Source: Candidatus Thorarchaeota archaeon (GTDB lineage Archaea; Asgardarchaeota; Thorarchaeia; Thorarchaeales; Thorarchaeaceae). Taken from it: 37,333 nt of DNA. The stretch lies in the NCBI GenBank assembly GCA_030669595.1, contig DAOVDG010000005.1:1-37333 (forward strand), written 5' to 3'. The position numbers were made by a program, and so were the translations under genes. Under the pieces are notes generated by a model. That model was not told the DNA's origin and searched no databases. It saw only the letters and a program-made list of their open reading frames with translations. This document shows positions 1,504-35,798 of this stretch, piece after piece; within the stretch, counting starts at the first letter, position 1; the number at the start of each line of letters is the position of its first letter.

Positions 1504-1579
1504 TGCAGTGACGCGTTACTATGCAGGCAATCTTTATAGCGAAAGTGCCAAACTCACACAAGAAAAAGGGGCTTAAGCT

Positions 1580-1972
1580 ATGTCTGGTGACGATGAAGAC
1601 TTCATTGTTGATGAATTTGAATGGGCTCTCAAAGATCCCACCGAAGAGAAGCTTCGAGCCCTCGGGGACGTTGTAAGCACGATTACAAAGAAACTGGTAG
1701 ATGCGATAGGAGACCTAGATAAGCGCCTGTACGATCTTGAAACAAAGCTTAACGGAATCGATTCGAAGGTCAACCAAATCGCTAGCCGCGGAGTTGCACC
1801 CCCGTCAGCAGCCTCAGCTGCCGCTTCTGCTGCCCCTGATATGGCTAGTGCCCCGATAGCCAAGGCGCCCTCAGCACGACCCCCACCAACTGGAGCTGGA
1901 GGCGGGCTCATGGGCGAGTTGAAGACCCTTCTTGCAGCTCGAAGAAGAAAAGCTGACGCTAGCAGCGAGTAG
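1580..1972 (+). CDS. Small protein: N-terminal coiled coil, Ala/Pro-rich linker, C-terminal WH2/VASP-FAB-like motif (GGGLMGELKTLLAARRRKADA)
   Basis: ATG start with clean ORF between two conserved genes; heptad-like DLDKRLYDLETKLNGIDSKVNQIA; Pro/Ala-rich middle; terminal basic motif. Function is inference. Confidence 0.7.
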   Translation: MSGDDEDFIVDEFEWALKDPTEEKLRALGDVVSTITKKLVDAIGDLDKRLYDLETKLNGIDSKVNQIASRGVAPPSAASAAASAAPDMASAPIAKAPSARPPPTGAGGGLMGELKTLLAARRRKADASSE

Positions 1973-16436: not shown

Positions 16437-18653
16437 TTAGGGTACAGGATAGTTGGATTGAGCGAACCCTGACGTTATAGACACAGTGTGAATTCGTTTG
16501 GTCACAAACGGCTTGAAGGGTATGCCATCGCCATGGTAAAACTTGCTGAACCATTCGACATAGTGAAGCCTTAGCGTATGCATGAAAGCCAATAGACCCT
16601 CAAGCATGCCAACAACAATCGTTCCAACAATCGCACCCACTAGTGGTAGATGAGGCGCAACAGCGTGTCCATCGTGCATGAAGAACTCGGGAATTATCAC
16701 AATTCCGAATATCGTGAATGCTGAGAACGGGATGTCAATGATTCCAGGAATCAGATTGAAGAAGACGCCGCTGAGGATGACGTGAACGGTGTTCAAAGCG
16801 AAGATCCGGGCGTAACTCACAGTGTGGCTAACCATCCCGAGGGAGTACTCCATAAACTCTACCATACCATCAACCCCCGACAACAAGGAGGCCGCGCCCA
16901 TTATGACTAGAGGAAGGAAGAGAGCGACTATGGTGAACATCATAGGAGTGATAGGCAGTGGAGTATAGATTCCGTTGTTTCCTGAGCCGAAGCCTATTCC
17001 GGCAAATGGTATCCAGAGATTTACATGGCCAGTTGAACTGAACCACTGATTGATGTTATTGTAACTCACGGAGAGAAGCAGGTTGATGAATCCGAGATAG
17101 AGCCACAGAAAGGAGAATGGCACAATAGCCCGACGGAAATCGCGGTGATGCAATCTGTTGTATAGATTCAACACGATTCCCAAGGAAATTTGAACAGCAC
17201 CGACCTCAATGGAGAGCTTGAGCATGTGAGCTTGCCGCCATGGATTAGGGTCTCCATTCTCAAGAGTGTGTGCGAAGATAGGCCAAAGTGGCTCGATTAC
17301 AGTATGCGAACCAAAGAAACTCCCAAAGAGGAATCCGCCAAGCATCGAGCAGAAGCCCATCATAATCAGGCCTGTTGCGCCTGCCTGCAGGTACCCGAGT
17401 ATGTCCCCCCATTCCTCGCCCTTCTGTTTGGCCCTCCAAGCCGCCAGCCCTATCAACAGAATCAAGAAGCCCTGGCCCACATCCGCGAAGATGAGCCCAA
17501 ATATCAGAGGAAAGGAGAAGAACAGAATCTTTGTTGGGTCCAAGTCATGCCTAGACGGGGTGCCGTAAGCCTTGACCATCTCTTCTGCAGGTTCCATTAT
17601 TTTGGGGTTGATAAGGCATGTTGGTGACTCCAGTTCCGCGAAGTCAGGTTGCTCGAAGGATATCTGTACGGTTTCATCAGTTCTCTCACGAAGAAGCGCA
17701 ATGAGGCGATCTTCTAAGCCTGCAGGGATCCAGCCCCAAACCTTCACGGATTGTGGGGTATAGACAAGGTAGTTCTTGACATTGATTCTGCTCTTCTCTA
17801 CGTCGAGGGCTTCCCAAGCTGCTGAGATCTTCATTCGCCATTCTTTCGCTATGAACGCATTGCGTTTGCGGAGCTTCTTGAGCTCCGCTTCAAGCTCACC
17901 AATCCTACGAATTGCGTGGGCAGCTATCTCCTCAGGGCGTCCCGACACATCCTCGAAGACATCCACCTCTTCGAAACCCATGGCGGAGAGTATTCTCCGA
18001 ATGGTTCCCTTGTTCTCGATTGCCACACTAACGCTGATTACTGAAACGCCCCTCTCAAGGGGACGTGACCTGAATGCGAAAGCGTTCTCGGTGATTTCTT
18101 TCAGACTCCACTTGAGCAAAGATAATCTTCCCGAAGGGAGTATTCCGGCGGTTGTGAACGTGTACTCTGTGGATCCTAGGAGACTCATGTCAAGACCAAG
18201 TGGTCTGAGTGACTCCGCAACGTTTCTTTTGCTCATATGCCGTTCAATCTCAGCCACATTAGAGGCTGCATGCTCGTCGTATTCCAGAACTTCGGTTTCG
18301 ATTGCGTTCAAGACCCTTAGGGCGAAGTCAAGTGACTTTGCGAGTGTTGAATCGTCAATCTCGATGCGTTGTCCACTCCTCTTCCTCAGGTCTATGCCGA
18401 GCAAAGCAACTACTTTAGAGAGTCTTTCAAGAGCATCAAAAACGTCTTCTTCTATTTGTGATTTTTTTACTTCAATGAACTCAGCTTGAAGCTGCACATC
18501 TATGAATTCGAACTGACTGAACTGTCCCAAAGCTAGAATGACCTGTCTCTCAAGGTCACGATGAGAAACAACCTTGGCAACTACTGTGCTTTCGGGGCGC
18601 ATATTTGACATCACCGTCAGTGAGGGTCGTAGAAGAACGACCAGTTCAGACAC
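16437..18653 (-). CDS. atpI: A/V-type ATP synthase subunit I (subunit a); start may be further downstream (e.g. MRPESTVV)
   Basis: Helical N-domain plus C-terminal TM domain with PTKILFFSFPLIFGLIFADVGQGFLILLIG and FMEYSLGMVSHTVSYARIFALNTVH. Confidence 0.93.
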   Translation of the reverse strand: MSELVVLLRPSLTVMSNMRPESTVVAKVVSHRDLERQVILALGQFSQFEFIDVQLQAEFIEVKKSQIEEDVFDALERLSKVVALLGIDLRKRSGQRIEIDDSTLAKSLDFALRVLNAIETEVLEYDEHAASNVAEIERHMSKRNVAESLRPLGLDMSLLGSTEYTFTTAGILPSGRLSLLKWSLKEITENAFAFRSRPLERGVSVISVSVAIENKGTIRRILSAMGFEEVDVFEDVSGRPEEIAAHAIRRIGELEAELKKLRKRNAFIAKEWRMKISAAWEALDVEKSRINVKNYLVYTPQSVKVWGWIPAGLEDRLIALLRERTDETVQISFEQPDFAELESPTCLINPKIMEPAEEMVKAYGTPSRHDLDPTKILFFSFPLIFGLIFADVGQGFLILLIGLAAWRAKQKGEEWGDILGYLQAGATGLIMMGFCSMLGGFLFGSFFGSHTVIEPLWPIFAHTLENGDPNPWRQAHMLKLSIEVGAVQISLGIVLNLYNRLHHRDFRRAIVPFSFLWLYLGFINLLLSVSYNNINQWFSSTGHVNLWIPFAGIGFGSGNNGIYTPLPITPMMFTIVALFLPLVIMGAASLLSGVDGMVEFMEYSLGMVSHTVSYARIFALNTVHVILSGVFFNLIPGIIDIPFSAFTIFGIVIIPEFFMHDGHAVAPHLPLVGAIVGTIVVGMLEGLLAFMHTLRLHYVEWFSKFYHGDGIPFKPFVTKRIHTVSITSGFAQSNYPVP

Positions 18654-18846
18654 CTTGAGGCTCAGGGCTTGTCCTCCAGAAATAAACGTTGTGACTTATG
18701 GAACCGCTTCAAAGGTAAACCACTCACTATTCACAACCATGACCACGGGAATGAACCGCATACACCATTCATACCGGCTCAGGCTAACGTTTATCTTGAA
18801 TTCCAGTCAGGGATTTCTGACATAGTGCGTCACGAGGAAGGACTGC

Positions 18847-19167
18847 ATGCCCGAAGCTCAAGACATCAATCTGATTCACAAGGCAGAAGAGACAGCGGAG
18901 GACAGAATTCGCGCCGCGGAGGACAGTGCAAGAGAAATTCGGAAACAGACTGAGATTGATATCAAGAAGATAATGAAGGACAGTGAAGCCAAGGGTAAGA
19001 AGGCGGCTGAAGCCCGACTAGACGAGAACGAGGCAAAGAGAGCTGCTAGGGAACGTAAGTACCAGAAGAAGGTTGATAGAATAATCGCTCAGATACAGGA
19101 AGCCTCAAAGGATAGAAAGCCCGCTGCAGTGCATGCGATGGTAGAGATGATACTTGGAGGGGAGTGA
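18847..19167 (+). CDS. ahaH: A-type ATP synthase subunit H (peripheral stalk coiled coil)
   Basis: Coiled coil INLIHKAEETAEDRIRAAEDSAREIRKQTEIDIKKI; immediately upstream of subunit E. Confidence 0.75.
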   Translation: MPEAQDINLIHKAEETAEDRIRAAEDSAREIRKQTEIDIKKIMKDSEAKGKKAAEARLDENEAKRAARERKYQKKVDRIIAQIQEASKDRKPAAVHAMVEMILGGE

Positions 19168-19171
19168 GGAT

Positions 19172-19801
19172 ATGAGCGGTGTTCAATCTATCATTGAGAT
19201 GATTAACAAAAAGGTGACCGAAAAAGAAGACACCATAATTAAAGATGCAAAGAAACTGAGAGAAACAAAGCTGCTCGACGCAAGGAAGAAAGGCAATGCC
19301 AAGAAGGCTGAAATGATGGTTGAAGCTGAGATACAATCTCGAATAGATAGTGTGAAGCGAGATGCCAATGCAAGATTGGCGGCGAGGCATAAAATCCTTG
19401 AAGCCAAAGAAGCCTTGATTACTGAGGTCCTAGAACTGGCGATTGAATCTCTGACGAAAAAACACAAGACAAAGGGCTATGCCAACATGCTGGTTGGCCT
19501 CGCCATTGAAGGCGGCTCAATCCTTGCTGTTGAGGAAGTTGAGTTGATGCTGCCCAAGGGTCAAAGCCCGCAGATGTACCTCACAAAAATAAGCCGGGAG
19601 ATCACAAGGCATACAGGAATTAAGACCAGAGTTTCGCTATCAAAGGAAAAAATCAGCTCCGCTGGAGGAGTCTTGGTCAAAAGCAAAGATGGTACAAAAT
19701 GGGTAGACAATACATTCGAGGGTCGCAGAGATCGAATGATGAGCGAGATGAGGAAGCTAATTTCACATATTCTTTTTGAAAACAATAACACGTCAATCTA
19801 G
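19172..19801 (+). CDS. atpE: A/V-type ATP synthase subunit E
   Basis: Charged N-terminal helix then YANMLVGLAIEGG.., SAGGVLVKSKDGTKWVDNTFEGRRDRMMSEMRKLISHILF typical of subunit E; RBS GGAGTGAGG before ATG 19172. Confidence 0.88.
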   Translation: MSGVQSIIEMINKKVTEKEDTIIKDAKKLRETKLLDARKKGNAKKAEMMVEAEIQSRIDSVKRDANARLAARHKILEAKEALITEVLELAIESLTKKHKTKGYANMLVGLAIEGGSILAVEEVELMLPKGQSPQMYLTKISREITRHTGIKTRVSLSKEKISSAGGVLVKSKDGTKWVDNTFEGRRDRMMSEMRKLISHILFENNNTSI

Positions 19802-19854
19802 TATCCGTGAAGATGTGTGTGACTGCAAGCTGATGACGCATCTTCGGGAGCATC

Positions 19855-20256
19855 TCACCCAACCATTAATGGAATGTAACCGACCAGCATGAAGGCGATG
19901 ACGAAACCGTAGATTGCGACTGCCTCGATGAACACCACATATAGAACAGTCTTGCCGAAAAGCTCCGGCCTCTCAGTGATTGCCCCAAGAGCTGCTGCAG
20001 ATGTCGTCGCCATCCCCAGCGCCGCGCCAACCCCAGCAGTACCCATGGTAATTGCCGCAGCCAACGCAAGACCAATAATCCCCAGAGTAGGATCTGCTAT
20101 TTGCAGCAACCTGAAGTCACGGCCCGGCATGACACTCAATGCGCTGGCAGCATACATCTCCATAACAAGAAACGCAAGTACTGACAAAGATAGAACCAAG
20201 ACTAGTGCACTGGCGACTAGTAGGGCAAGACTGGTTTTCAGGGAATAGATCTTCAT
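19855..20256 (-). CDS. atpK: A/V-type ATP synthase subunit K (proteolipid c subunit) with N-terminal hydrophobic extension
   Basis: GLALAAAITMGTAGVGAALGMATTSAAALGAITERPELFGKTVLYVVFIEAVAIYGFVIAFML with conserved membrane Glu. Confidence 0.92.
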   Translation of the reverse strand: MKIYSLKTSLALLVASALVLVLSLSVLAFLVMEMYAASALSVMPGRDFRLLQIADPTLGIIGLALAAAITMGTAGVGAALGMATTSAAALGAITERPELFGKTVLYVVFIEAVAIYGFVIAFMLVGYIPLMVG

Positions 20257-20275
20257 TGTTGGCTTCCTCCAATTA

Positions 20276-21343
20276 TCACCATATAGTAATCATCCGTCTT
20301 ATGATTGAGGGAGGCTCTCCTTTCTCGAGCCCTACTGCGATAGATAGCAAGTTTCGCACCTCAAGGTACTTGAGGTTGAAGAACCCAATCACAGTACCAA
20401 GATGGAATGGGAAACCAGTAATTTGCTTTTTAATCTGTTGTGCAATGTAATCTTCCACGGCCAGCTCGATCTCTGCCAAGTCTTGGGTATTGGCATATAT
20501 CCGCCTAAGTCTAGTAGCCATCCCGGTATGTTTGGTTTTCCTGAGTTGCATCAACACTCCGCTCCAAGAACCACGTTGGCGTATCGAGTCCCCGAATGCC
20601 TGTGAGTCTTCAGTGAATCGAACCATTGAAGCATTAATTATGCGTTGATTGAGACCCAGAATCAATGCGCGCAACATCATGATAACGTTACGCAAGTCCA
20701 CACGTGCTTCAAGAAGCTGAACTATCCTCTGCTTGTCTTCACTAGAGAATTCTTCCAGTGAGGCCATAATCTTTCGCAGGTACCACTCCTCAAGGGCCAC
20801 CTCAAGCGGTGCTGCGGAATCGAACTCTTCGTATGCGGGGAGTCTAGTGAGAAGTGCGACCTTCAGATCCAGAATCGGGATTTTTTCAATGAGTTTTTCC
20901 ACATTCTCCGTTTCGAGTAACTGCGCAAATATTCTTGACTGTGCGGGGGAGGTCGGTACCACAAATCTGAGTGTCTGGCCCTTCCCAAGCCCCACATGCT
21001 TCCCGCGAATCACAGTTTTCAAGCCCTCTATCAAGAAGACCAAAGAGTATGATTCAGCGAAGCGGCGTACCTTCCCGGACAAAGACCGGGTGAGCCTATG
21101 ACTGACATCAGCGTAGTCAATGGCTAAAACCAGCGCTAGCTCCTCAGGACTCGGCAGCTCCGCCGGGGTAGCAGCGCTTATGACTGGGCCGTAACGGGTT
21201 CCCCTCAATGCTCCGATGAACTTCTTGTAGTCTTTGGAGCATAAGAGTCGTTCAAAGTCAGCAATACTGAGCGAGCGTGCCAGATGTCCTCTAATTCTCG
21301 CATTGACGAATCCGTACTCTTTCGCAGCCTTGTAGGCTTTCAT
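20276..21343 (-). CDS. atpC: A/V-type ATP synthase subunit C
   Basis: YGFVNARIRGHLARSLS, DLRNVIMMLRALILGL, LGTVIGFFNLKYLEVRNLLSIAVGLEKGEP. Confidence 0.92.
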   Translation of the reverse strand: MKAYKAAKEYGFVNARIRGHLARSLSIADFERLLCSKDYKKFIGALRGTRYGPVISAATPAELPSPEELALVLAIDYADVSHRLTRSLSGKVRRFAESYSLVFLIEGLKTVIRGKHVGLGKGQTLRFVVPTSPAQSRIFAQLLETENVEKLIEKIPILDLKVALLTRLPAYEEFDSAAPLEVALEEWYLRKIMASLEEFSSEDKQRIVQLLEARVDLRNVIMMLRALILGLNQRIINASMVRFTEDSQAFGDSIRQRGSWSGVLMQLRKTKHTGMATRLRRIYANTQDLAEIELAVEDYIAQQIKKQITGFPFHLGTVIGFFNLKYLEVRNLLSIAVGLEKGEPPSIIRRMITIW

Positions 21344-28007: not shown

Positions 28008-29195
28008 ATGGAGAACTGGAGTGTCTTGTACATGGGGATTCACGAGGACACACTCCCGGTCCTAGCGATATTGGGTGTGATATTGTCGATGACGGGAGTC
28101 AACCTGTTCATAATTAGAGACCCAATGCGAGCCATTTCAGCAGTGCCACTCTCACTGGTCCACGGGGGCATAAGTAATCGACTCTCAAGCATTCAGGTCA
28201 ATCTTTACGACGAGAACAAGAAGATTGCTGTGAGTCTCGAGATTGGCGACTACTGGGGAGGCGAACAGAAGCAGAGGTTGAGAGCGAGGTATTACCACGA
28301 GGATGGAAGCTATAAGGACCTTCACTCTGCGTACACGAATGGTGACTACTCAGGTGTTGCTCAGATTAGGTATGACCCATTGCAGGGAATAATGGCGAAT
28401 GTACCCGGCAAGTCAGAGAAAATGCTGTTCCTGTACGATCAGGTCAATGGAGAACGCCTGATCAAATATGTCGCGATACAGAGCTACCGGTACAGCGATC
28501 TGGACGAACATGATGAGAGGATTAACAACATCAGGCTGAGCTATGCCGGTTCTGAGTACACTGTCTTCCATGACAATTGCAATGACATGGACGGATTCCA
28601 TAAGGATCTTGACTTCGGATATGGAGTTCCCTCTGAAGGAGAATTCATCGTACCAACTGGAGCCAGCTACATGACTCCAGAAGATATTCCGAACAATCCC
28701 TCAGGATGGCACGGTCCAAACTTCGTTCACGTACTTGATAGGTCCTTCAGGCTATATCAGCTGAGCGAGTTCTCGGTGATAGGTCAACTCATCCAGAGCA
28801 GTTACACTCTAGGGAAGACCTATGTCGCACTTTTCGACGAGAATAAGCAGATTGTGATGCTCATCCACTGGGGTGACGCTTGGTATGGAAGCAAGAAGGC
28901 GTGGTTCAACGTCTACTTCTATCCGCAGAACGGCGGAGGCTACGCTCAGTCGTCAGGTTACATCTACAACAGCGGCTTCACGAAGACTGGCAAGCTCTGG
29001 TGGGGAGGGGGCGCTGGTGGTGACGGTGCCATCTACTCAAGCATTGACGGGTCTGGTGATGCCTATCCCATTGGCGAGTGCGACAAGGCCTCCAGGATCA
29101 TCAAGTACGTGATGCTGCTGGGATACAAACATTCGCACTACAACCTAGTGGATATGAGGATTCACGACATCAACGTCGTCGCGGACCCAGATTAA
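28008..29195 (+). CDS. Predicted exported/anchored protein with two tandem jelly-roll (LamG-like) domains; family copy 1
   Basis: N-terminal hydrophobic segment LPVLAILGVILSMTGVNLFII; two internally similar units (VNLYDENKKIAVSLEIGDYWG / VALFDENKQIVMLIHWGDAWYG). Fold assignment is inference. Confidence 0.75.
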   Translation: MENWSVLYMGIHEDTLPVLAILGVILSMTGVNLFIIRDPMRAISAVPLSLVHGGISNRLSSIQVNLYDENKKIAVSLEIGDYWGGEQKQRLRARYYHEDGSYKDLHSAYTNGDYSGVAQIRYDPLQGIMANVPGKSEKMLFLYDQVNGERLIKYVAIQSYRYSDLDEHDERINNIRLSYAGSEYTVFHDNCNDMDGFHKDLDFGYGVPSEGEFIVPTGASYMTPEDIPNNPSGWHGPNFVHVLDRSFRLYQLSEFSVIGQLIQSSYTLGKTYVALFDENKQIVMLIHWGDAWYGSKKAWFNVYFYPQNGGGYAQSSGYIYNSGFTKTGKLWWGGGAGGDGAIYSSIDGSGDAYPIGECDKASRIIKYVMLLGYKHSHYNLVDMRIHDINVVADPD

Positions 29196-30003: not shown

Positions 30004-30740
30004 GCGGCAAACACCTCGCTGAGCGGCATGCCCTTTCTCAACTCCCATAGGTGTCCGCCTTCTGGTAGGGCAATCCGCTTACCCCCAACATCCTGTAGCC
30101 GTGTTCTCAGGCGGCTAAGAATCTCAGCGAAGAAATCGTTTCTGTCGTAGATGATTACCGCGTCCAGCGTCATGTCAAGATAGAGCGGCCTTAGGGTCTC
30201 TGACTCCGTTGTATCCAGTGCATACCACTGGATGCTTGAATAGATTCCAGAATGCTCCCATAGTCGGATTATCATCTCTCCTGTGTGTCGTGTAGTGTCT
30301 ATGAGTGTACTCACCCTTGACGTCATGCGCTCTTTCCAATCTCGGACAATGACAGCTATGTCTATGTCACTAGTTTCATGGTAGTCCCCTCGTGCTACAG
30401 AACCGAATATGGCCACGGTCACGAGTCTGCTCCCAAGGCCATCAAGCAGGCCAGACATCAAAGCATCAAGCACATCCTTGTAGGGACTGTTGGCGAGCTT
30501 ACCCAGATTGACCTCACCTGATACTGAGGCCACGATATGTGCGGGGGACCATAACTGATATTCACCACGCCGCACTCGCGTGCCATAGTCCGACCTCACC
30601 AGCCTGCTCAGAATGTTGAGTAATACACGGCGTTCAACATTGAGCTTAGCTTGCGCCTGATTCAGTGTGATTATGCTTCCTCCAAACTCCTGCCAGAGTT
30701 TTGCATACGCCTTGCCAAGCCACTCAGGAAGCCATCTCAT
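30000..30740 (-). CDS. Minimal nucleotidyltransferase with N-terminal winged-HTH (putative antitoxin), module 1
   Basis: IFGSVARGDYHETSDIDIAVIV (GSX10DXD); N-terminal HTH-like LNQAQAKLNVERRVLLNILSRLVRSDYGTRVRRGEYQLW. Confidence 0.87.
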   Translation of the reverse strand: MRWLPEWLGKAYAKLWQEFGGSIITLNQAQAKLNVERRVLLNILSRLVRSDYGTRVRRGEYQLWSPAHIVASVSGEVNLGKLANSPYKDVLDALMSGLLDGLGSRLVTVAIFGSVARGDYHETSDIDIAVIVRDWKERMTSRVSTLIDTTRHTGEMIIRLWEHSGIYSSIQWYALDTTESETLRPLYLDMTLDAVIIYDRNDFFAEILSRLRTRLQDVGGKRIALPEGGHLWELRKGMPLSEVFAA

Positions 30741-30749
30741 AATAATCTC

Positions 30750-30775
30750 CTATTTGGATATAATATACTATTTGG
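30750..30775 (-). promoter_or_regulatory. Candidate promoter/operator of module 1: CCAAATAG-TATATTATAT-CCAAATAG
   Basis: 8-bp perfect direct repeat flanking a TATA-like core, just upstream of GGAG and ATG 30740 on the minus strand. Confidence 0.55.
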
Positions 30776-30786
30776 GAATAAACTTT

Positions 30787-32202
30787 GTGTTTCTGGTACA
30801 TGACAACTGCAACGACATGGACGGGTTCCACCAGGATCTTGACTTCGGCTACGGAACCTCGTCAGATGGAGAGTTCATAGTGGAATCTGGAAACAGCTAC
30901 ATGACTCCAGAAGACATTCCGAGCAGTCCCTCAGGTTGGCACGGTCCTAACTTCGTTCACGTACTTGACAGGCCCTTCAGGCTCTACCAGCTGAGTGAGT
31001 TCTCGGTGATAGGCCAGCTCATCCAGAGCAGTGGTACCTTGGGGAAGACCTATGTCGCACTCTTCGACGAGAACAAGCAGATCACACTGCTCATAATGTG
31101 GGGTGACTCCTGGCTAAACAGCAAGAAAGGGTACTTCAACGTCTACTTCTACCCGCAGAACGGCGGAAGCCACTCTCAGTCGTCAGGTTACATCTACAAC
31201 AGCGGCTTCACGAAGACCGGCAAGCTCAGGTGGGGCGAGGGCATGCTTAGTGACGGCGCCATCTACTCGAGTATCGACGGATCTAATAGTGTCATCGGCA
31301 GTTGCGATAATGCATCGAGGGTCATCAAGTATGTTGTGCTGCTAGGATACAGGTACTCCCACTACAATCTCGTGAACATGAGGATTCACGACATCAACGT
31401 CGTCGCGGACCTAAACGCTCATGACCCCAATGCCCCAAATCCTGATGAGCCAGTGGAGCATGATGGAACCTATGAGTCGCGGATAAAGAGCGCAAAGACA
31501 GCTGCTGGCCCCTATGTTACCAACGCTGAAAGCTCTGTCACCTTCTACTGGACCGGGTGGTGGCCATGGTGCCATATTACGGTGTATCTTGTTACTTCAC
31601 CGGCGTGTACTCTTGACATGCATGTGAAGGTCGACCTGATTGGTAGCTTTGAAGTCGTGGATACCAGATCGAACTTCTTTGGACTTCAGGCGATGACTGA
31701 GAGTGAACAAGAAACAGCTGAGCATGAAACAATCATCAACACAGACTCTGTATGGGATGACACCTCGAATGTCCTGGCAGTTGCTTTTGCCATAGCCTCT
31801 CTGGCACTTATAGTGACTACTATTGCGTACCAGCTCACAGGTGTATGGCAACCATGGCTGCTTTCCTTGGGTGTATGGTTTGGAATAGGTCTTGCGTTCA
31901 TGCTGGTTATGCACCAAAAGTGGTTAGCAAAAGAATGGACAGGTGAATATGCGGGACTCAAGTACTTTCTGTTGGTCGCGTCACTCCTTGGAACCATTGC
32001 TGGCGCTCTTGGAGGACTGCTTTTGATTGGCTGTCGGAGCGTAACAAGATTGATTCAGTACTGGACCTATGCCAGGTATTTCACTGCAGTTTCCGCGGCT
32101 GGTTGGAAGGGGCGTTCGAATTCCGGAAACCTTGTTTGCGCCCTTATTCTATTCGCCGTGCTAGTTGGACTATCGTTGCACATAGCTTTCGGGAGTAGTT
32201 AG
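30787..32202 (+). CDS. Jelly-roll family copy 2 (5'-truncated) fused to a C-terminal multi-TM region; ORF open from 30667 but homology begins near 30787
   Basis: VHDNCNDMDGFHQDLDFGYG...LFDENKQITLLIMWGDSW...NMRIHDINVVADLN parallels copy 1; then about 250 aa of extra sequence with four or more hydrophobic helices. Confidence 0.6.
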   Translation: MFLVHDNCNDMDGFHQDLDFGYGTSSDGEFIVESGNSYMTPEDIPSSPSGWHGPNFVHVLDRPFRLYQLSEFSVIGQLIQSSGTLGKTYVALFDENKQITLLIMWGDSWLNSKKGYFNVYFYPQNGGSHSQSSGYIYNSGFTKTGKLRWGEGMLSDGAIYSSIDGSNSVIGSCDNASRVIKYVVLLGYRYSHYNLVNMRIHDINVVADLNAHDPNAPNPDEPVEHDGTYESRIKSAKTAAGPYVTNAESSVTFYWTGWWPWCHITVYLVTSPACTLDMHVKVDLIGSFEVVDTRSNFFGLQAMTESEQETAEHETIINTDSVWDDTSNVLAVAFAIASLALIVTTIAYQLTGVWQPWLLSLGVWFGIGLAFMLVMHQKWLAKEWTGEYAGLKYFLLVASLLGTIAGALGGLLLIGCRSVTRLIQYWTYARYFTAVSAAGWKGRSNSGNLVCALILFAVLVGLSLHIAFGSS

Positions 32203-34976: not shown

Positions 34977-35798
34977 ATGTTCTGCTGGATATCTTGTAAC
35001 GTGGCGATGCAAAGATCAGACATTCACCAGAGAGTATTCGAGGGATTATGGAGTCTCGATATCGCCCCTAACCTTAGCGGCTCCGAGTACACAGTTTCTC
35101 ACGACAACTGCAACGACATGGACGGGTTCCACAAGGACCTTGACTTCGGCTACGGAGCTTCGTCAGATGGAGAGTTCATCGTGCCATCTGGGGCCGGCTA
35201 CATGACTCCAGCAGACATTCCGAGCAGTCCCTCGGGATGGCACGGTCCCAACTTTGTTCACGTACTTGATAGGCCCTTCAGGCTATACCAGCTGAGTGAG
35301 TTCTCGGTGATAGGTAAGCTCATCCAGAGCAGTAGTACCATGGGGAAGACGTACGTTGCACTCTTCGATGAGAACAAGCAGATTGTGATGCTCATCCACT
35401 GGGGTGACGCTTGGGAAGGAAGCAAGAAGGGCTGGTTCAACGTGTATTTCTATCCACAGAATGGTGGCAGTAACTACCAAGCGTCGGGCTACATCTACAA
35501 CAGCGGCTTCACGAAGACCGGCAAGCTCTGGTGGGGAGAGGGCTTTGGTGGTGACGGCGCCATCTACTCGAGCATCGACAAGTCTGGCAGTGCATATCCG
35601 ATAGGAGAGTGCGACAATGCCTCCAGTGTCATCGAGTACGTGGTCTTGCGGGGAATCAGGTACTCGGGAAACGTCCCGGTGAACATGAGGGGCTGTGACA
35701 TCAAGAACTTTGGTAAACCCGAAGTGGTTCGCCCAGGTAAATTCCATGGGTGTTGCAACACCATCAGAGTCTATCATGTAAGTGGTTATGATGAGTAG
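34977..35798 (+). CDS. Jelly-roll family copy 3 (5'-truncated; homology starts about 35080)
   Basis: GSEYTVSHDNCNDMDGFHKDLDFGYGASSDGEFIVPSGAGYMTPADIPSSPSGWHGPNFVHVLDRPFRLYQLSEFSVIGKLIQ... parallels copies 1 and 2; diverges after RYSGNVPVNMRG. Confidence 0.65.
   Translation: MFCWISCNVAMQRSDIHQRVFEGLWSLDIAPNLSGSEYTVSHDNCNDMDGFHKDLDFGYGASSDGEFIVPSGAGYMTPADIPSSPSGWHGPNFVHVLDRPFRLYQLSEFSVIGKLIQSSSTMGKTYVALFDENKQIVMLIHWGDAWEGSKKGWFNVYFYPQNGGSNYQASGYIYNSGFTKTGKLWWGEGFGGDGAIYSSIDKSGSAYPIGECDNASSVIEYVVLRGIRYSGNVPVNMRGCDIKNFGKPEVVRPGKFHGCCNTIRVYHVSGYDE

Follow-up and report, generated by a model that had tools for sequence, protein, structure and literature searches.

Asgard archaea are the closest relatives of eukaryotes, and cultured Lokiarchaeota build protrusions that are filled with actin. 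Eukaryotic factors for actin assembly are built with polyproline beside an actin-binding helix, on a protein that is oligomeric or linked to a GTPase, and WASP reportedly possesses polymerase activity. Profilins and gelsolins are the only Asgard proteins that the reviews and papers found by us list as binding actin; Heimdall and Thor profilins were shown to bind the polyproline of VASP weakly (Survery et al., PMC8410842). In the Ena/VASP proteins (VASP, Mena and EVL), filament binding involves an F-actin-binding motif (FAB) that was mapped in human VASP to residues 259-278 (PMC10340426), and the basic stretch R273-K276 (that is, RRRK) was found to be needed for that activity (PMC4543927). The crenarchaeal protein arcadin-2 ends in a helix of 17 residues, which binds the groove of crenactin at nM affinity, and the protein depolymerises crenactin (PMC5173319).

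The window analysed here is a stretch of 37,333 nucleotides from a thorarchaeal genome (a MAG of 2.17 Mb, 84.6% complete). Near its beginning, on the plus strand, an open reading frame with an ATG start (1580..1972) encodes a protein of 130 aa, predicted to consist of a coiled coil, an Ala/Pro linker and a FAB-like C-terminal helix; its coordinates and length are those given in a preliminary description of this DNA. Its sequence suggests an oligomeric protein that may bind actin filaments, and the evidence leans somewhat towards its representing, in Thorarchaeota, a family of small oligomeric actin-assembly factors that is widespread in Asgard archaea. Comparison with orthologues from the same genus gave dN/dS values of 0.09-0.13, with differences piling up at third codon positions, which together identify the reading frame as a real gene; it is under purifying selection. 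Upstream, on the same strand, a TATA-like box (TTTATA, 1533..1538, found by eye) lies 42-47 nt 5' of the ATG and may act as a promoter element, and a GGGG run resembling a Shine-Dalgarno sequence can be read directly at 1568-1571. An antisense open reading frame (1573-1911) overlaps the gene. The gene comes after a sugar-phosphate mutase gene, and its conserved neighbourhood in Thorarchaeota holds no actin gene, consisting of a block of sugar-phosphate mutase, PIG-L deacetylase and glycosyltransferase. Many thorarchaeal genomes (among loci L033-L070) have a gene for a Ras/Rab-like GTPase two genes 5' of the mutase gene, and a reading frame of the same cluster is the next gene at two loci (L098, L099) of another Asgard family, f26 (f2, f3, f5, f25, f26 and f27 are labels for such families, and L-numbers denote loci).

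The predicted architecture of the protein, a coiled coil joined by a linker to a C-terminal helix, rests on an AlphaFold2 model with a mean pLDDT of 76. A first helix (aa 3-18; 1586..1633, plus strand as for all parts of the gene), at the end of which lies an invariant FEWALxDP block (aa 13-20), is followed by a long helix (aa 22-70; 1643..1789; block pLDDT 85-97) that is presumed to form the coiled coil and oligomerisation domain. A low-confidence, apparently disordered and fast-evolving Ala/Pro-rich linker (aa 71-108; 1790..1903) then leads to a terminal helix (aa 109-127), which is overlapped by the FAB-like motif GAGGGLMGELKTLLAARRRKA (aa 105-125; 1892..1954). The N-terminal coiled coil, the PPP within the linker (aa 101-103; 1880-1888) and the C-terminal tail GAGGGLMGELKTLLAARRRKADASSE that were reported in the preliminary description are all recovered in this picture. 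Across 25 thorarchaeal sequences, residues F13, E14, W15, A16, L17, D19, P20, R26, G29 and T36 near the N-terminus and E113, L114, K115, L118, A120, R121 and K124 near the C-terminus are invariant; orthologues are thus near fixed at both ends, while the linker varies freely. Compared with sequences from four other genera, the C-terminal motif is 67-81% identical and the linker 29-51%, and the pattern LMxELxxLLAxRRRK, whose loss among orthologues the preliminary description would have counted against its proposal, is conserved. Among homologues more broadly, the helix follows the consensus I/L-M-G-E-L-K-x-L-F/L-A-K/R-R-K. Searches of Pfam, NCBIfam and the PDB with the whole protein returned only coiled-coil noise, and no description of its family was found in Pfam, in NCBIfam or in the papers located by a literature search to which most subscription papers and preprints were external.

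The preliminary description had aligned the tail almost residue for residue with a VASP FAB; the VASP letters given there agree with the published motif (PMC10340426), and the alignment withstands quantitative comparison. When the VASP FAB peptide was searched against all six frames of the host genome, its single match at E<=10 was the tail of this protein (E=0.034, 57% identity), in which the RRRK of VASP filament binding is conserved. A profile built from the vertebrate FABs of VASP, Mena and EVL, applied to 231 whole Asgard genomes, gave matches in 28 at E<=0.05, and in 27 of these the match was the tail of the same family (best E-value 8.2e-7; 1.5e-5 in the host itself); a decoy profile from the reversed FABs gave five scattered matches, the best at 0.0024, and none in the family. 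Ungapped substitution scores with shuffles were also used, a default-weight HMM on 22 columns being too sharp for FABs. Of the sequences entered in the profile and shuffle comparisons (the FABs of VASP, Mena and EVL, and those for WH2, GAB and the C helix), the VASP FAB and the core of the GAB were checked against print (PMC10340426). By the shuffle measure the VASP, Mena and EVL FABs were equalled by none of 3000 shuffles against either the thorarchaeal or the Loki-like motif, a level that the WH2s of N-WASP, WIP and WAVE, thymosin and the VASP GAB did not reach. Searching the PDB with the motif alone gave no information, since no FAB-bearing chain was found there, and a match to twinfilin-2 (E=0.93) was treated as chance. 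Taken together, the resemblance of the tail to FAB is statistically real and specific.

The additional label of WH2 given in the preliminary description did not hold: 20 tails gave no match to PF02205 at E<=10 (HMMER, filters on) and the LKKT/V element is missing, so that the tail is not a canonical WH2. The peptide, profile, decoy and shuffle tests instead lead to its designation as FAB-like; in some lineages the helix also shows a face of WH2 type. The closest likeness to FAB (GGGGLM) is found in Thorarchaeota and is not family-wide, other lineages being less FAB-like (2-10 of 3000 shuffles for the group scored as 'others'); the thorarchaeal match to FAB could therefore be partly convergent, and the two may quite possibly have converged on a WH2-derived helix. 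When the upstream arginine is included, the helix of Loki-like members lines up, without a shift in register, with LLxxI in the helix of the WASP WH2 (6 of 2000 shuffles). This register is also what might be expected if the C-terminal helix entered the hydrophobic groove of actin monomers, so as to sequester or depolymerise actin instead of assembling it, in the manner of arcadin-2, which is likewise archaeal and provided with a short conserved helix of similar size at its extreme C-terminus, joined to a larger part that is dispensable for actin binding (PMC5173319). That reading is nevertheless improbable: the arcadin-2 tail relies on tryptophan for its groove binding (PMC5173319), whereas family tails mostly lack this residue; the tail matches a filament-binding motif, and not WH2, best and most specifically; and polyproline is a usual feature of assembly factors. 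The points likened to arcadin-2 are the position and size of its helix, and arcadin-2 acts to depolymerise crenactin.

A similar comparison bears on the WASP/WAVE/WASH proteins, organised as polyproline-WH2-C-A, with which the family shares a helical N-terminus, polyproline, a proposed actin-binding C-terminus and, in Loki-like members, the WH2 helix register. The C helices of WASP and N-WASP gave intermediate scores (0-2 of 3000 shuffles against the thorarchaeal and Loki-like motifs), one f3 protein carries a KRKSKSEDDDEDD tail, and one f5 homologue scores 23.5 bits against the WASH subunit CCDC53 (PF10152; cut-off 24.6), all of which would suit a nucleation-promoting factor whose helix acts as a connector on Asgard actin-related proteins. 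We regard this as very improbable indeed, however, because the match is weaker than that to FAB, most members are without an acidic tail, and the CCDC53 likeness is sub-cut-off, confined to the coiled coil and linker, and seen in few members (the 130-aa protein gives no such match); canonical WH2 LKKV is also absent, and no WASP-family N-terminal domain was detected. Of the two proteins in question, the related-looking f3 product (L120:4458-5240, 261 aa) has two candidate C-terminal helices, the first of which is followed by KRKSKSEDDDEDD and recalls WASP connector-acidic regions, and the CCDC53 match of the f5 product (L111:4998-5414) spans its coiled coil and linker and may be coiled-coil noise.

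Returning to the preferred reading of an actin-assembly factor, the likeness to Ena/VASP comprises a putative FAB, of the form LM-x-E-L/M-x-x-L/M-L-A-R-R-R-K and ungapped in its core, together with a polyproline region, a predicted coiled-coil oligomeriser and an actin in the host. The differences are equally clear. No EVH1 domain was matched in Pfam, the 130 aa consisting entirely of helix and linker; no GAB/WH2 site for G-actin precedes the FAB, there being no second motif in the linker and no match of the VASP GAB to the tail; and the C-terminal right-handed coiled-coil tetramerisation domain (PF08776) gave no Pfam match. The order of parts is reversed, with the coiled coil N-terminal and the FAB-like helix C-terminal, and the length is 130 aa as compared with about 380. 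On present evidence the protein would work like Ena/VASP, but because these three parts are absent and the order reversed, it is not a member.

The host encodes further actin machinery that the preliminary description had proposed to look for. A true actin, whose lack the preliminary description would have counted against its proposal, is present (E=1.8e-132); actin occurs in 220 of the 231 Asgard genomes and is thus so nearly universal in the phylum that its co-occurrence with the family discriminates little. A two-domain gelsolin was likewise found, while the profilin candidate (135 aa) stayed below threshold, scoring 18.6 bits where 25 is the cut-off. That candidate is the second of two adjacent look-alike reading frames on the minus strand of host contig C29 (L138:1018-1392 and 1492-1899). 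Asgard profilins and 2DGel gelsolins (Akil and Robinson; Survery et al.) are, like the proposed function of this family, actin regulators of the same cells, and some of the profilins bind VASP polyproline; unlike the family, they are folded domains with Pfam homology. The suggestion that the polyproline of the 130-aa protein serves as a profilin ligand is weak for this protein, because its linker holds only PPP and the host profilin candidate is sub-cut-off, and many thorarchaeal orthologues have fewer prolines still, although the orthologues of other Asgard families carry PPPPP repeats. Such runs occur in the linkers of families f2, f25, f26 and f27 (for example, PPPPPGAPPPPPG), and are followed by C-terminal tails such as NPVSLRGAIMGELKELFAKRK. 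A TEKIR_14 protein with PPPAPP (Survery et al.) appears not to belong to the family, since the TEKIR_14 orthologue (L066/L026) is without PPPAPP.

Orthologues of the protein are distributed throughout the Thorarchaeota, in nearly every genome of the Thor family, and most Asgard families have homologues. Searched with a Thor-family profile at E<=0.01, 178 of the 231 Asgard genomes gave matches, of which the weakest include coiled-coil noise, and a profile of the tail alone matched 156 of them at E<=0.001. Both the three-part plan and the C-terminal helix are retained in the homologues that were retrieved from a dozen further Asgard families. A GTDB-wide scan, with patterns taken from Thor sequences, recovered Asgard loci only, most of them from Thorarchaeota.

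The C-terminal helix is, as far as sequence comparison can tell, a portable module that has been reused on Asgard small GTPases. Matches to the tail profile include four reading frames outside the family: two Arf/Rag-like small GTPases (PF00025, 8.6e-26; PF04670, 2.7e-23), each with a C-terminal extension that contains polyproline and has the helix at or near its C-terminus; a 705-aa product (L146:2902-5016) with polyproline, the helix, an apparent C-terminal membrane segment and no Pfam match; and a 338-aa coiled-coil protein. One of the GTPases, used as a query, has relatives at E<=1e-40 in 69 of 231 Asgard genomes, and a version of the helix stands at or close to the end of all 23 GTPase tails that could be read in the stretches retrieved (counted by eye), as in PPPPPPK...RSLVISELKEMFVKK and ...RSQVLNELKQLFDKKRKL. 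Arf/Rag-like GTPases of this kind (L148:1879-3420, L149:1695-3080 and L158-L183) have C-terminal extensions with a coiled coil and, in many cases, polyproline, and end in an LxELKxLFxKKR helix like that of the 130-aa protein.

Arf/Rag-like GTPases act at membranes in eukaryotes, and the occurrence of the helix on such proteins, some of them without polyproline, together with its basic and amphipathic character, would also fit a helix that docks to membranes or to other proteins, unrelated to actin and common to the family and the GTPases. This explanation is unlikely, however, given a modest hydrophobic moment (0.33, versus 0.34 for the VASP FAB), an ELK core that is near invariant beyond the needs of a generic membrane helix, the specificity of the FAB search (27 of 28 genomes, and no decoy match in the family) and the recurrent pairing of the helix with polyproline.

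If the protein is indeed an actin-assembly factor, its N-terminal helices are predicted to bring several chains together as a coiled coil, and its disordered proline-rich linker would serve as a flexible tether that, in lineages with PPPPP, may recruit profilin-actin. The amphipathic C-terminal helix and its basic RRRK end would then bind the actin filament as the FAB of Ena/VASP does, and an oligomer bearing several such helices could bundle filaments, hold barbed ends, and feed or protect their growth. On Arf/Rag-like GTPases, where it often directly follows polyproline, the same helix might place the binding of filaments under a GTP switch or link it to a membrane. The broader proposition, that Asgard-wide Ena/VASP-like polymerases or bundlers and their GTPase-fused branch represent an ancestral module of polyproline plus actin helix behind the eukaryotic Ena/VASP- or WASP-type polymerases, is one that we consider doubtful. 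Should the family bind filaments, Asgard archaea would own an oligomeric, polyproline-bearing actin-assembly factor, of the class by which eukaryotes shape their filopodia and lamellipodia, and the fusions of helix and GTPase in some lineages would constitute a direct link from GTP switch to actin that predates eukaryotes. The family may thus be an undescribed actin-assembly factor, and could show how eukaryotic control of actin began.

Elsewhere in the window, three open reading frames on the plus strand (28008-29195, 30667-32202 and 34977-35798) share a repeated domain, HDNCNDMDGFHxDLDFGYG..., and are apparently recent paralogues, and a cluster at 16437-21343 resembles, by eye, subunits of an archaeal A/V-type ATPase (a, E and C-like reading frames).
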